NCBI RefSeq assembly: GCF_000829465.1
Contig: NZ_JXAL01000003.1
Span: forward strand, 124,001 to 188,000
Source of the DNA: Cohnella kolymensis
GTDB taxonomy: Bacteria; Bacillota; Bacilli; Paenibacillales; Paenibacillaceae
Reading direction: 5' to 3'
DNA length: 64,000 nt
Numbering within the stretch: the stretch's first letter is position 1; every line of letters begins with the position of its first letter. The translations under genes and the position numbers were made by a program. The notes beneath the pieces are model-generated. The model was not told where the DNA came from, made no database searches, and worked only from the letters and a program-made list of their open reading frames with translations. Of this stretch, positions 4,240 to 55,159 are shown in pieces.

Positions 4240-5256
4240 ATGAAAGGAATAATACTTTGCGCAGGAAAGGGAACGAGAATGCAGCCCTTTACCTTCTCCT
4301 CTCCCAAAACTCTATTGCCGGTCGCGAACGAGGCGATCCTGGATCATTGTCTGCGGAGCCTGAAGCAAGCCGGTATCCATGACATCGGTGTCGTTCTAAA
4401 CCCGGAGCAAACGAGCATTGTCGATCATCTGTTAGGCAAGCACCCGCAAACATCTTTTACGTTTATAAGACAAACCGAGCCGTTAGGCATTGCCCATGCA
4501 TTGTCAGCTGCCGAATTTTTCATCAGGGATGATCCGTTTGTATTGTTATTAGGAGATATTCTGATAACGGAACCGCTGACTGTGCTGCTTGAAGCTTTCA
4601 AGGAGAAACAGGGTGCCGTTATGCTCTCCAAGGTGGACCATCCTCAGGACTACGGTGTCGCAGTCGTCAACGGCAATCGGATTATCCAATTGGAAGAAAA
4701 ACCGGCTGAGCCGAAAAGCGAACTGGCAGTCGCAGGCGCCTATGTTTTTGATAAAAAGATATTCAAAGCTATTGAGAAGATTAGTATTTCTCATAAAGGA
4801 GAGTACGAAATCACATCTGCGATCCAATGGATGATCGGCAACGGTGATTCCATCGGTTATGCGTTGACCAAAGAGCGTTTCTTTGACGTAGGAACCCCCG
4901 ATCGGCTGCTGGAGGCGAACCGCTTCATTCTAAGGTACAGTCAGGGAACGGAGAATGAGATCGACCCGCTCGCGGTGATGGAGAATTGTACGGTGATTCC
5001 CCCTGTGAAGATCGGTACGGACTGTATTTTGAAAAACGTCGTTATCGGTCCTTTTGTATCCGTGTGTATGGGTTCTACTTTATCCGACTGTTCCATAGAG
5101 AACAGCATTTGTATGGAAGGCACGATTATTCGTTCGCCCGGTATCCCTGTCACGTGCAGTATATTCGGCCGGTACTCCCGTTTGGAAGGACGCTCGGATG
5201 TGAATCGGATGATCTGCGTGCTGGGAGATAAATCGACGGCTATGGTGGTGGAGTAG
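4240..5256 (+). CDS. glucose-1-phosphate thymidylyltransferase-like nucleotidyltransferase
   Basis: The RBS AGGAAAGGGGG lies before the ATG; 338 residues. It opens with the nucleotide-binding signature GIILCAGKGTRMQPFT followed by PKTLLPVAN, and has LLLGDILI as the metal site and YGVAVV/LEEKP for the sugar. This is the pattern of RmlA/SpsI-type enzymes that make dTDP- or UDP-glucose from glucose-1-phosphate. After about residue 245 it carries a short left-handed beta-helix (IPPVKIGTDCIL..NVVIGPFVSV), as in long thymidylyltransferases. It would supply an activated hexose to the neighbouring transferases. The nucleotide it prefers cannot be told from sequence. Confidence 0.8.
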   Translation: MKGIILCAGKGTRMQPFTFSSPKTLLPVANEAILDHCLRSLKQAGIHDIGVVLNPEQTSIVDHLLGKHPQTSFTFIRQTEPLGIAHALSAAEFFIRDDPFVLLLGDILITEPLTVLLEAFKEKQGAVMLSKVDHPQDYGVAVVNGNRIIQLEEKPAEPKSELAVAGAYVFDKKIFKAIEKISISHKGEYEITSAIQWMIGNGDSIGYALTKERFFDVGTPDRLLEANRFILRYSQGTENEIDPLAVMENCTVIPPVKIGTDCILKNVVIGPFVSVCMGSTLSDCSIENSICMEGTIIRSPGIPVTCSIFGRYSRLEGRSDVNRMICVLGDKSTAMVVE

Positions 5257-5294
5257 ACGAAACCATCACGTTGTTCGCCGAAAAGAGGTATAAC

Positions 5295-6059
5295 ATGAAC
5301 GTCAAAGCAGTGAGTTATATCCGTGCCATAGAGGAAGGATGGAGCCGGCCTTTACTGTTTCGCTGCGACGACGGCAATCAATATGTGGTTAAATTGCTTA
5401 ACAATCCGCAAGGCATAAAAGTTTTACCGAATGAAATGATCGCCTTTCGGCTTGGGCGGCTGCTCCATCTGCCTGTCGGAGAATGCGCGATTGTGCATGT
5501 GTCGGGAGAACTTATTACCCAATCTCCTGCGCTCAGGGATATGCAAGTGAAGGCCGGCCCTCACCTTGGCAGTGTTTATCGCGAAACGGTAAAAGTTTTA
5601 CAAAACGCGGATGACCTGACAGGCTGCTGCAACTTGGATAAGGCTGCAGGGATGATCGCCTTCGATCATTGGATACAAAATTGGGATCGTGCGGATAACA
5701 TCGGCAACATTCTGGTATCTAAGGAAGATGACAACAAGAAGATTGTAATGATTGACCACGCGAATGCTTTTACAGGGAGCTGGACCCTTGATTCGCTGAA
5801 AGAAAATCGTACGAATAGATCGGTATATTGGGGTAAAATCTATGAACTTTTTATACCGCATATTAGCGATAAACGGCTATTCAAGAGTGCACTTCGGCAA
5901 ATTCAGTCACTAAGCAAAGCTGAGCTGTGGACGGCAATGTCCGGGCTGCCGCGGAAATGGTCTGTTTCTCATACAGAGCAGCGTAAGCTGGTGAAGTATT
6001 TGGAGTACAGAAAAGTCGCTGCGGGGGAAGCTTTGAAGGATTTACGCAAAAAATTTTAA
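5295..6059 (+). CDS. HipA-like kinase domain protein
   Basis: I chose the ATG at 5295, which has AAGAGG seven bases upstream, over an in-frame TTG at 5271; 254 residues. The catalytic-loop-like FDHWIQNWDRADNIGNIL (Asp and Asn separated as in HipA) and the later metal site MIDHANAF mark a HipA/PI3K-like kinase fold; QYVVKLLNNPQG carries the N-lobe lysine. No HipB-like antitoxin lies beside it, so a toxin role is not supported. It sits between an RmlA-like gene and manC, so a role in phosphorylating a glycan intermediate or envelope protein is possible but unproven. Confidence 0.65.
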   Translation: MNVKAVSYIRAIEEGWSRPLLFRCDDGNQYVVKLLNNPQGIKVLPNEMIAFRLGRLLHLPVGECAIVHVSGELITQSPALRDMQVKAGPHLGSVYRETVKVLQNADDLTGCCNLDKAAGMIAFDHWIQNWDRADNIGNILVSKEDDNKKIVMIDHANAFTGSWTLDSLKENRTNRSVYWGKIYELFIPHISDKRLFKSALRQIQSLSKAELWTAMSGLPRKWSVSHTEQRKLVKYLEYRKVAAGEALKDLRKKF

Positions 6060-6123
6060 CGAACGAAAACGCCTGGTTATAAATGAGGATGCGTGCCTGT
6101 CCAGGGTGAAAGAGGGGAAATCG

Positions 6124-7179
6124 ATGAAGGTCATTATAATGGCAGGCGGAAAAGGGACCCGTTTTTGGCCCAGAAGCCTGGACCAGATGCCAAAGCAATT
6201 TCTCGCCTTAACCTCTAATTTGACTATGCTGCAGCAGACTTACAAGCGATTTCGTGAATGGCTGCCGGAACATCTTATCTACGTATGCACTTGGAGAGGA
6301 TACTTGGACCTGGTGAAGGAACAATTACCGGATTTAACCGACAGCAAAATCATTTTAGAGCCGGAGCAAAGGGATACAGGACCTGGTATCGGGTTGGCGG
6401 CTTTGCATTTTCTTCGGCAGGGTGATGACGAAGTGTTGGTTACCGCCGCTGCCGATCACCATATTCCGGATTCTGAACAACTCATGAGTGTATTAATGCA
6501 GGCGGAGACTTTCGCCGGTACCGGCTGCCCGATTGTGACGATCGGGGTTACCCCGACACGGCCCGAAACCGGGTACGGTTATATAATGACGTCCGGTACG
6601 AACGACCGGGATAACGTATTGAAAGTTCAGACATTCATTGAGAAGCCCACCATGCAAAAGGCACAGCAACTCATACAATGCGCTGATGTTTATTGGAACA
6701 GCGGAATCGTGGTCTGGAAACCGTCGACCATTCAGCATTATATGATGCGTTATGAAATGGAGCTGTGGAACGTCCTTAACAGCAGCGGGGATGAATTGGA
6801 CAAAGGATACTCGCTCCTTCCGCATCGGTCCGTGGATCACGCGATCCTGGAGAAGTCCGATAATCTATACTGCATTCCTGCCCGCTTCGAATGGGATGAC
6901 GTCGGCACGTGGAAATCGCTGGAGCGAATGTGTCACCCGGATCCACAAGGCAACATTACCTTCGGTGACACCCATACCTTTTCTACGAATAACAGCATCA
7001 TTTTTTCCGAGCACCAGAAAGCGATCGTGATCGGTGTAGAAGATTTAATTATTGTTTCCACCGCTGACGGGCTCCTTGTTTGTCATAAATCCAAAGAATT
7101 ACAAATAAAAAAAAGCGTTGAAGGAGGCGGAAACAAAAGGGCATTAAATATTAATTCATCGGAGATGAGCTGCGTATGA
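6124..7179 (+). CDS. manC: mannose-1-phosphate guanylyltransferase (short, single-domain)
   Basis: The start is the ATG at 6124, with AAAGAGGGGAAAT upstream; 351 residues. The signatures are IIMAGGKGTRFWPRS with PKQFL, the PETGYGYI loop, FIEKPT, and FEWDDVGTW near the end. These are diagnostic of GDP-mannose pyrophosphorylases of the type lacking the phosphomannose isomerase domain. It makes GDP-mannose from mannose-1-phosphate and GTP, for the glycosyltransferases around it. Its stop overlaps the start of the next gene (ATGA), which indicates translational coupling. Confidence 0.88.
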   Translation: MKVIIMAGGKGTRFWPRSLDQMPKQFLALTSNLTMLQQTYKRFREWLPEHLIYVCTWRGYLDLVKEQLPDLTDSKIILEPEQRDTGPGIGLAALHFLRQGDDEVLVTAAADHHIPDSEQLMSVLMQAETFAGTGCPIVTIGVTPTRPETGYGYIMTSGTNDRDNVLKVQTFIEKPTMQKAQQLIQCADVYWNSGIVVWKPSTIQHYMMRYEMELWNVLNSSGDELDKGYSLLPHRSVDHAILEKSDNLYCIPARFEWDDVGTWKSLERMCHPDPQGNITFGDTHTFSTNNSIIFSEHQKAIVIGVEDLIIVSTADGLLVCHKSKELQIKKSVEGGGNKRALNINSSEMSCV

Positions 7180-51983: not shown

Positions 51984-52746
51984 TGGGATCCAACTTTTCA
52001 GCTTCAACGGTGTGTCCATCTTTGTCTTTTGCGAGAATCAATATTTCCTCGGTGCTATTGGGAAGAAATGCAAACCAACCGGTCGTGCTGTCACTGATAG
52101 GGAAATTAACAGCCTGAGTGGAAAAATGGTCTCCGGAGTCAACAAATACACTTTCCACACTTTCATTAAAGAACACACCATAAACCAGAGGAAAAGGTGT
52201 AGTTGTATGAATATAGGCATCTGGGCTCTTTAGGTATTGATAATAGACAGATTTATTCTTCAGCACGCTGCTTCCGAATCCACCGCTATGGATCCACTTC
52301 CACCCATTCCAGGTTTTTTTCATATATTCAACGGATAAATTTATAGTGTCGCCATTGCGTTTTTGGCTTTCTTCCGTCAATGGCCGTTGATAGAATACAA
52401 AAGCACCATTATCAGAAGGCTCCACGTGCACAAGGTTAATTGCATCATAATTTGTAAAATCCATTACTGCTTGCTTCAAGTCTTTCCACTCTTGGCTGCC
52501 AGAGATTGCGGCACTCTGAATACCGGTTTCCAACCGATTTTGATACGCATTAAATCCGATACTTAGAATAACGACAAGTGATGTTATAACTAATGCCAGT
52601 CGTGACAGTCGGCGAAATCGTTTGGTGTCTGCAGGTTTTGTGGTCACACTTCTTTTAATCTGCTCTATTTGTACAACATTCGGCGAAGAGCTATTTAAAG
52701 GCCCCATTCTTAATTGATCATACCAATTGGGTTTTTCGCTATCCAT
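51973..52746 (-). CDS. membrane anti-sigma factor for the adjacent ECF sigma factor
   Basis: 257 residues with a cytoplasmic N-terminal part (about 46 residues), one membrane helix (LALVITSLVVILSIGFNAY) and an extracellular domain with no enzyme motif. Its start overlaps the end of the sigma gene by eight bases. The layout is that of an RsiX/RsiV-like regulator that holds the sigma factor at the membrane. The outer signal is unknown. Confidence 0.75.
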   Translation of the reverse strand: MDSEKPNWYDQLRMGPLNSSSPNVVQIEQIKRSVTTKPADTKRFRRLSRLALVITSLVVILSIGFNAYQNRLETGIQSAAISGSQEWKDLKQAVMDFTNYDAINLVHVEPSDNGAFVFYQRPLTEESQKRNGDTINLSVEYMKKTWNGWKWIHSGGFGSSVLKNKSVYYQYLKSPDAYIHTTTPFPLVYGVFFNESVESVFVDSGDHFSTQAVNFPISDSTTGWFAFLPNSTEEILILAKDKDGHTVEAEKLDPTTE

Positions 52747-53278
52747 CGATAAAACCTCCTTCCAGCCATGAAGACATTTTAGAGCGCGCCCGATTTAATC
52801 TGGACTTTACGGTACCTTCTGATATTTGAAGAATGGAGGCAATCTCTTTAACACTAAGCCCATACTTAGCATCTAAGATCATGACTTCCCGTAGTTTCGC
52901 GGGGAGCTTAAAGACCTTGCTCCAAATGTATTGAAAATTCGAGTGTAGAAAGAATTCCGATTCCGCAGAAGGTGAATTGCCGAGGGCTGACAAACGGTCA
53001 ACGGGAATGACTCTTTTGATCCATGCCGAACGCTGGTGGCTAACTGAAACGTTTCTCGCAATTTTCAATAACCAAGTTTTAAATGACGCTTCTCCACGAA
53101 ACGCATCCAGCGAGCGGAAGGCCCTGATAAAGGTATCTTGGGTTAAATCGTCCACCAAATCCTGATTTCGGGTTATGAGAAAAATGTAATTGCGGACATC
53201 ATCCCAATAGCATCGTATCAGCTGGTCAAGCTGGCTATCATCTAATGTATTAACATTCTTCAGATACACGTCATCCAC
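52739..53278 (-). CDS. ECF RNA polymerase sigma factor
   Basis: 179 residues from a GTG at 53278, RBS TGAGGTGA. Region 2 is VDDLTQDTFIRAFRSLDAFR followed by EASFKTWLLKIARN, and region 4 is LSVKEIASILQISEGTVKSR. It belongs to the SigX/SigV-like group of Bacilli. An ECF-type promoter motif lies just upstream, consistent with autoregulation. Confidence 0.88.
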   Translation of the reverse strand: MDDVYLKNVNTLDDSQLDQLIRCYWDDVRNYIFLITRNQDLVDDLTQDTFIRAFRSLDAFRGEASFKTWLLKIARNVSVSHQRSAWIKRVIPVDRLSALGNSPSAESEFFLHSNFQYIWSKVFKLPAKLREVMILDAKYGLSVKEIASILQISEGTVKSRLNRARSKMSSWLEGGFIDG

Positions 53279-53298
53279 TCAGCTGTCACCTCAAGAAA

Positions 53299-53328
53299 AT
53301 AGACTAAACTACGAATGTAAAGGTTCCA
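53299..53328 (-). promoter_or_regulatory. candidate ECF promoter before the sigma gene
   Basis: On the minus strand TGGAACC is followed after 17 bases by GTCTATT. The second ECF pair at 60938 has TGTAACC, 16 bases, GTCTATT. Confidence 0.55.
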
Positions 53329-53426
53329 TTTATTTTCTGAAGATATCATCCTGTTTCATTTCGGCGAGAATTGGGTAATTTTTAGGTGATGTACATGTAT
53401 ATACATTTAACAAGACAATTCTCCTA

Positions 53427-53508
53427 TTGAAAAAGGCAAACTTATCGAAAAGGTAAGGACGCAAAGCCACGGGTCTAAGGCGAAAGCTATGACAGCCGGG
53501 TTTCCAAG
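53427..53508 (+). ncRNA. cyclic-di-GMP-I (GEMM-I) riboswitch aptamer
   Basis: The conserved GGCAAAC, a short stem with GAAA loop, GGACGCAAAGCC, CGGGTCTAAGG, a GAAA-capped inner hairpin and GCCGGGTTTCC occur in the order and spacing of GEMM-I aptamers. Closing pairs TTG(A)AA/TTT(C)CAA form P1. A terminator follows directly. GGGTCT at 53471 is complementary to AGACCC of the terminator's left arm. So the free RNA may form an antiterminator, while c-di-GMP binding lets the terminator form (an OFF switch), which is inference. It controls the small coiled-coil gene. Confidence 0.88.
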
Positions 53509-53516
53509 GGGGCCAC

Positions 53517-53541
53517 AAAAGACCCTTTTTGGGTCTTTTTT
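53517..53541 (+). terminator. riboswitch terminator
   Basis: AAAAGACCC, a five-T loop and GGGTCTTTT form a perfect stem ending in T6. It lies nine bases after the aptamer and before the coiled-coil gene, as the expression platform of a transcription-controlling riboswitch. Confidence 0.88.
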
Positions 53542-53598
53542 ACTTTCTTCCGACCTAAACTACGATAATTCGCTATGAGCGGCGGGGGGAGATGATCT

Positions 53599-53814
53599 AT
53601 GGAAGACGAAGCATTGAAGAAGATTCTCAATGACCTTGGAGGACTGCGAGAAAAACAAAATAATTTGAATCAAGGAATCAAAAATCTTGAAAGACTCGTG
53701 GAAAAAGAAAGACAAAACAAACAAAACTCCGGCATAATTGCGAACACCAAGCATGTTTCGTCTAAACAAAGCTCCATACCTGAGAATGAACCCGATTCCC
53801 CCGAAGCTAATTAG
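53599..53814 (+). CDS. 71-residue coiled-coil protein under c-di-GMP riboswitch control
   Basis: RBS GGGGGGAG, ATG at 53599. Residues about 5-40 form a heptad coiled coil (LKKILNDLGGLREKQNNLNQ), followed by a polar, probably disordered tail. No signal peptide, membrane helix or known domain. It is flanked by the riboswitch terminator and by its own palindromic terminator, so it is a single-gene unit answering to cyclic-di-GMP. Function unknown; an adaptor or assembly factor for a c-di-GMP-linked trait (motility, biofilm, sporulation) is possible. Confidence 0.72.
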   Translation: MEDEALKKILNDLGGLREKQNNLNQGIKNLERLVEKERQNKQNSGIIANTKHVSSKQSSIPENEPDSPEAN

Positions 53815-53833
53815 TTGTTTGTTACATTCGCTG

Positions 53834-53858
53834 AAAAGCTTGGATATCCAAGCTTTTT
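53834..53858. terminator. palindromic terminator
   Basis: AAAAGCTTGGA followed by its reverse complement forms a perfect stem with T5 after it, isolating the coiled-coil gene from the histidine kinase gene. Confidence 0.85.
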
Positions 53859-53941
53859 GTTGTTGTCTTATCATGATTCAATTTATCAGTAAACGGGTAA
53901 TGTTTTAGATTATCTCTGATGTACAGGAAGGTAAATTAGCC

Positions 53942-55159
53942 ATGTTCGAGGCAATCGACAAAAAAGAGCAAGAACGGATAATGGCTTTACGGCGATATCA
54001 GATACTTGACACACCCCCGGATGGCGCTTTTGACAGAATTACATCTCTTGCCTCCGAATTGTTAAATGTGCCCGTTGCGATTACCAGTCTGGTGGATACG
54101 GAGCGGATTTGGTTCAAATCTCATCATGGAGTGGACTTGCAGGAGGTTCAACGGGAGCCTGGACTGTGCTCGTCAGCCATTCTTCGTGATTTGCCCTATA
54201 TTCTTAATGATGCCAGTATCGACCCTCAATCGCTTGCACATCCGTTGGTAGCGGGAGAGGCAGGCTTCCGTTTTTACGCCGGTGTCCCACTGACAACTCA
54301 TGACAACTACAACCTTGGCGTGTTATGTGTGATGGACTATAAACCGCGTACGATTACGGAACAGGAACTCAATATTCTGAAAAAACTGGCTCAAATCGTG
54401 ATGGATGAAATGGAATTGCGCTTAGCCTCACGCCACGTTGACAGCCTGACAAAGCAAAAGTCCGCATTATTGGCGGTCTTAAGCCACGAAATCCGTACGC
54501 CTATGAACGGTATGGTAGGAATGGCAAGCCTGCTGCAATCTACTGAATTGACCGAGGAACAGAAGGATTATTTAGAAATAATGGACACGTGCGGCCAATC
54601 ATTGCTTACATTGCTGGATCATATCTTGGATTTTTCTAAATTAGAAGCGGGTAAGATGGAACTGCTCATTGAACCATTCGATCTCCGCTCCTGCGTGCGG
54701 CAGGTCATGAATCTGTTTGCTGCCCAAGCCCTTAGCAAAGGGGTTGTAATAAGCAGCGAGATGGATTCGAATATCCCGGCTTTGCTGGCAGGGGATATGC
54801 AAAAAATTCGTCAAATTTTAATTAACTTAGTTAGTAATGCAGTGAAATTTACGAAGACAGGTAAAATTCATATTGCAGTAGAACTAGATTCAAATGACAG
54901 CAATCTAGAGAATGTTAACGTCTATTTTAGGGTTAAGGATACAGGGATCGGAATTCAAAATGAGCAAATGGACCGGTTGTTCTATCCTTTTTCTCAGGTA
55001 CATTCTAGGCTTTCTCATGAAAACTATGGAGGAACAGGGCTCGGATTGTCTATCTGCAAACAATTCGTTGACATGATGCAAGGGCGCATCTGGCTTGAAG
55101 ATTCGAGCAATGAGGGTTCGACGTTTACCTTCAACCTCAGGTTGGCCGTATTAGAGTAA
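53942..55159 (+). CDS. GAF-domain histidine kinase
   Basis: 405 residues. An N-terminal GAF domain (YQILDTPPDGAFDRITSLAS, FYAGVPLTT..LGVLCVMD, residues about 20-165) is followed by the HisKA domain with H-box LAVLSHEIRTPMNGMVGMAS. The ATPase then has N-box ILINLVSNAVKFTKTG, G1 VKDTGIGIQNEQ and G2 YGGTGLGLSICKQFV. No membrane helix is seen, so it is a cytosolic sensor. It resembles the kinases of signalling hybrids but lacks a receiver domain. No response regulator is adjacent. Confidence 0.88.
   Translation: MFEAIDKKEQERIMALRRYQILDTPPDGAFDRITSLASELLNVPVAITSLVDTERIWFKSHHGVDLQEVQREPGLCSSAILRDLPYILNDASIDPQSLAHPLVAGEAGFRFYAGVPLTTHDNYNLGVLCVMDYKPRTITEQELNILKKLAQIVMDEMELRLASRHVDSLTKQKSALLAVLSHEIRTPMNGMVGMASLLQSTELTEEQKDYLEIMDTCGQSLLTLLDHILDFSKLEAGKMELLIEPFDLRSCVRQVMNLFAAQALSKGVVISSEMDSNIPALLAGDMQKIRQILINLVSNAVKFTKTGKIHIAVELDSNDSNLENVNVYFRVKDTGIGIQNEQMDRLFYPFSQVHSRLSHENYGGTGLGLSICKQFVDMMQGRIWLEDSSNEGSTFTFNLRLAVLE

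Follow-up and report, generated by a model that had tools for sequence, protein, structure and literature searches.

In the 64,000 nucleotide stretch of Cohnella kolymensis DNA investigated here (the window), a c-di-GMP-I riboswitch of the OFF type and its terminator appear to control a lineage-specific gene for a 71-residue coiled-coil protein, and we hold this reading as a whole with slightly better than even confidence. The riboswitch and its logic are textbook. If the reading is true, the c-di-GMP regulon of this Gram-positive genus has gained a young, lineage-specific small protein, and the locus exemplifies how a gene may arise, or become inserted, between a riboswitch and an older target. 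A sequence-only reading had described the locus as an isolated c-di-GMP-controlled unit; its sighting was correct and its description is partly supported, in that the gene is a plausible orphan and the isolation is doubtful. Our literature search found no paper joining Cohnella with riboswitches, and none that brought c-di-GMP riboswitches together with small proteins and coiled coils in Bacillus.

The aptamer occupies positions 53425-53508 of the forward strand. It matched the full length (1-87) of the Rfam c-di-GMP-I (GEMM-I) covariance model RF01051 (gathering score 35) with 81.9 bits and an E-value of 1.4e-14, and was the sole Rfam match in the window at gathering scores. This match supports the earlier identification as a GEMM-I aptamer, for which a covariance hit had been expected at 53427-53508. 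The two ligand positions of this aptamer class are numbered 20 and 92, which we take to correspond to positions 53436 and 53504 here. G53436 directly precedes the CAAA motif, and the 3′ CC begins with C53504. Judged by these letters, the aptamer is of the c-di-GMP type and not of the cGAMP type at both ligand positions, and c-di-GMP would be its expected ligand. The available text of PMC6456294 describes that an A-to-G change at nucleotide 20 turns the choice of cGAMP into a choice of c-di-GMP. A forward-strand scan of 53200-53425 for sigma-70-like promoters gave no candidate with 9 of 12 matches.

Both intrinsic terminators that had been proposed were recovered on the forward strand. The first, at 53517-53539, forms the expression platform with a 9 bp stem of -12.0 kcal/mol, and 1 of 200 shuffled sequences was as stable. 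The second, at 53832-53859, lies beyond the region 53427-53814 to which the unit had been assigned and has a palindromic stem (12 bp by the terminator scan, 11 bp by the fold) of -14.1 kcal/mol, a stability reached by 0 of 200 shuffles.

Two candidate antiterminator strands compete for the left arm of the first terminator. The hexamer GGGTCT at 53471-53476, inside the aptamer, pairs with AGACCC at 53520-53525 in a duplex of -11.1 kcal/mol, as good as which none of 2000 arm shuffles was found. The heptamer AAGGGGG at 53507-53513, in the 3′ flank of the aptamer, emerged from the folding series and has two alternative partners, either TCTCCT in the 5′ flank, which extends stem P1, or CCCTTT in the arm and loop of the terminator. 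The duplex with the arm has -7.8 kcal/mol and was equalled in 41 of 2000 shuffles, while the P1 duplex with the 5′ flank has -7.1 kcal/mol and is borderline (122 of 2000 shuffles). The switch through GGGTCT that had been put forward thus stands as a real pairing at this locus, but it shares the arm with a second pairing and is absent from the corresponding riboswitch of Paenibacillus abyssi (-0.3 kcal/mol). In P. abyssi it is instead the 3′ flank that is complementary to the arm (GUGAUG:CAUCAC, -8.1 kcal/mol, 23 of 2000 shuffles), and the P1 flank pairing is there no better than in shuffles (421 of 2000).

The aptamer and the first terminator do not overlap, and both are present in the lowest-energy fold of the transcript to 53548, the energy of which (-38.4 kcal/mol) is unchanged when the aptamer is enforced. 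In a transcript ending at 53526, the structure with GGGTCT:AGACCC is the lowest-energy fold (-26.9), and when the right arm of the terminator is barred from pairing, the left arm is taken up by the 3′ flank instead (-28.4). At equilibrium the two antiterminators, at -31.9 and -28.4, both lose to the terminator at -38.4, and switching must therefore be kinetic. The mechanism may be depicted as follows: With c-di-GMP bound, GGGTCT and the 3′ flank would be held within the aptamer, which would let the terminator at 53517-53539 form. Without ligand, one or both strands would occupy the terminator's left arm for the time that the polymerase needs to pass into the small gene, and the 71-residue product would be made when c-di-GMP is low.

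A survey of the genus placed these pairings in a wider context. With 87 candidates scored per genome, the genus Cohnella contained at least 184 c-di-GMP-I aptamers, distributed over 36 of 37 genomes; 139 of these loci were taken, 67 displayed a terminator-like hairpin by scan and 66 were analysed. Complementarity between the 3′ flank and the arm exceeded that of base shuffles (Stouffer -3.21 for the 66 loci, -3.0 without the window). Complementarity between the aptamer core and the arm did so less clearly (-2.76 for 41 loci, -2.01 without the window), and the value for the two flanks with each other was -2.11 in the 66 loci (-1.87 without the window). Taken singly, 10 of 66 loci reached p 0.05 for the 3′ flank with the arm, and 2 of 41, one of which was the window itself, did so for the core with the arm. 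Since the controls were plain shuffles of the bases and some of the loci are related to one another, these values are only supporting. As a genus-wide mechanism, the GGGTCT pairing was rejected, being above shuffles on average yet individually so in just the two loci. In two congeners (loci L013 and L014), the 5′ flank of the aptamer appeared by eye to be pairable with the adjoining 3′ GTGTTTTTT stretch, as if the P1 stem were itself the terminator.

Within its own genome the riboswitch does not stand out from the rest of the c-di-GMP regulon. Ten c-di-GMP-I aptamers were found there, and the copy in the window scores highest. The genes downstream displayed Pfam domains in six of seven tested cases, namely DUF192, PilZ, FapA, copper amine oxidase N-terminal, fibronectin type III, and MshEN with T2SSE, and the remaining gene (behind aptamer L010) had no Pfam domain. 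Judging from these domains, part of the regulon has to do with surface and motility functions, as is usual. Two further sites, L008 and L009, had no clear downstream target; here the aptamers lie just 3′ of similar-looking genes of 124 and 99 residues (L008 700-1324 and L009 1501-1938). A DNA search of the window's locus against the genus gave matches confined to the aptamer region and to the palindrome of the second terminator.

The ORF between the two terminators, at 53599-53814 on the forward strand, encodes the 71 residues that the sequence-only reading had reported. Its frame has the best coding score of the six (0.223 bits per codon), a value not exceeded by 38% of 250 fragments taken from long ORFs. 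A G-rich stretch resembling a ribosome-binding site precedes the ATG. The GC content of the ORF is 38.9% compared to 50.1% in the window, and that of the neighbouring genes is likewise below the window. At the a and d positions of a heptad pattern covering residues 6-34, eight of nine residues are leucine, isoleucine or valine, and the heptad score was equalled in 2 of 5000 residue shuffles. Single-sequence AlphaFold2 predicted one helix from residue 2 to 44, with pLDDT of 94-98 over the first four ten-residue blocks. From these predictions, the protein most likely forms a coiled coil with itself or with a partner, and the tail beyond the helix is probably disordered.

Relatives of the protein were absent from every collection searched. 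Among 5.77 billion proteins, in a search that requires shared five-residue words, it found itself alone. None was detected in 59 related genomes, 36 of which were congeners, nor in 50,697 phage and 72,556 plasmid records, and its own genome held no paralogue at an E-value of 10. The absence of a known domain, as claimed before, agrees with Pfam and NCBIfam, where no family scored above its curated score. The type III secretion protein YscO (PF07321) was considered and rejected, at 16.5 bits against a curated score of 28.8. By these searches, the gene would be specific to this lineage. The earlier suggestion that the protein opens new ground in c-di-GMP signalling has only the lack of relatives behind it, and the same lack may equally be that of a young, lineage-specific gene.

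The lack of relatives is also what would be seen if the ORF were not a gene at all and the locus consisted of a terminated riboswitch RNA followed by a chance open frame. Shuffling of the spacer yielded an ORF of at least 71 codons in 82 of 2000 cases, and 6 of 166 shadow ORFs had as high a codon score. A codon score within the range of genes, the rarely equalled heptad pattern, the ribosome-binding-like stretch and a terminator close behind the stop codon speak against a chance frame, and we regard this explanation as improbable. The ORF is probably a genuine gene that is either young or evolving fast, the translation of which we infer.

The surroundings of the unit bear on its claimed isolation. 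Upstream, the divergent gene at 52739-53278 on the reverse strand encodes an ECF sigma factor (Pfam Sigma70_r2 and Sigma70_r4_2), whose relatives in congeners are at most 53% identical, and lies outside the unit. Downstream, a histidine kinase gene with the Pfam domains GAF, HisKA and HATPase_c is located at 53942-55159 on the forward strand. The second terminator does close the small gene, but isolation is made doubtful by this kinase, which starts only 82 bases beyond the terminator in the same orientation as the small ORF and may be an additional target of the riboswitch or an earlier one. Among at most 50 candidates scored per genome in 36 congeners, no relatives of the kinase were found at an E-value of 1e-80, and its GAF domain is rare, being present in 5 of 394 genomes of the family, its own included, at an E-value of 1e-25.

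Isolation is further weakened by P. abyssi, in which the counterpart of the kinase stands directly 3′ of a c-di-GMP-I riboswitch. At this locus (L075), an aptamer at 4750-4835 (79.3 bits) and one hairpin directly precede a GAF-PAS-kinase ORF at 4926-6545, with a gap of 90 bases. Between the two kinases, the GAF domain and linker have 71% identity over 178 residues. Both loci thus have the riboswitch, the hairpin and this GAF-linker region in common, whereas P. abyssi has neither the small gene nor the second terminator, and its GAF domain is followed by a PAS domain and a kinase half that differs in type. As an observation on P. abyssi, the region 4750-6545, matching in the GAF and not in the kinase half, has the appearance of a domain swap behind a riboswitch.

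The older or true target of the riboswitch could accordingly be the GAF kinase at 53942-55159, with the small ORF, together with the terminator behind it, inserted later in this lineage and the kinase either still reached by read-through or uncoupled. Because the genome taken as P. abyssi (G298), which agrees with L075 in its riboswitch score and in tRNA scores, carries nine c-di-GMP-I riboswitches, we estimate that the riboswitch would adjoin the GAF gene by chance with a probability of about 0.002, and this estimate, with the rarity of the GAF domain and its position directly behind the P. abyssi riboswitch and hairpin, speaks for such a target. The strong second terminator, which separates the small ORF from the kinase, and the different types of the two kinase halves speak against it, as do the loci of the other relatives. 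The full-length relatives of the kinase in Bacillus sp. ISL-34 (66%) and Peribacillus simplex (62%) had no c-di-GMP-I riboswitch within 5 kb flanks, and none was present within 1.5 kb of the GAF loci in three further genomes (L139-L141) or of the second copy in G298 (L142). We consider the kinase a possible but rather unlikely target. On the sequences compared, the link between riboswitch and GAF gene, seen in two lineages, is unlikely to be due to chance, yet it is not general. The simplest history may be an older pair of riboswitch and kinase, into which the small gene was later inserted. That the 71-residue protein is a partner of the adjacent kinase, a small adaptor whose gene came to lie between the riboswitch and its ancestral target and which is made at low c-di-GMP and tunes the displaced kinase, is an idea to which we assign a very slender chance.

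Returning to the small gene as the favoured target, this locus is not the only one where such a gene directly follows a c-di-GMP-I riboswitch, as is evident from a family in the congeners which we term PxYH. A short closed ORF came first behind the aptamer in 35 of 139 loci of the genus, according to a rough gene caller by which many are doubtful and some are internal or chance frames. The PxYH family comprises ORFs of 55-68 residues located 10-72 bases 3′ of the aptamers in four congeners (loci L118, L123, L124 and L153 of genomes G018, G013, G008 and G003). Its members share the core LCxAL and the end YH, and no Pfam match was above cutoff. A profile of the four members gave six matches in 5.8 billion proteins, four named Cohnella and two from JGI. 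The family had no match in the genome of the window's own strain at an E-value of 0.01. Locus L180 in genome G031 is by eye perhaps a fifth member. The PxYH units resemble that of the window in having a c-di-GMP-I riboswitch followed by a small gene, and differ from it in that their protein is unrelated to the 71-residue product.

The sense of the switch is suggested by its architecture. Since the aptamer and the terminator fold together, and ligand binding should leave the terminator free to form, an OFF switch like Cd1 of Clostridioides difficile would be expected. Some GEMM riboswitches are ON switches, and c-di-GMP might correspondingly raise the expression of the small gene. The example described in the part of PMC9262584 available to us is the cGAMP riboswitch pilM, in which aptamer and terminator are mutually exclusive, whereas those of the window coexist without overlap, and we therefore find an ON switch very improbable. 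According to the same portion of PMC9262584, the aptamer and the terminator of Cd1 coexist, its antiterminator makes use of a strand that stabilises the aptamer, and it acts as an OFF switch. As far as that account goes, the favoured OFF-type riboswitch of the window shares with Cd1 the aptamer class and the coexistence of aptamer and terminator, and would also share a transcriptional OFF logic, with either of two candidate strands as the antiterminator. The two differ in what they control, which is a flagellar operon for Cd1 and, for the riboswitch in the window, probably the single orphan small gene that it fronts.
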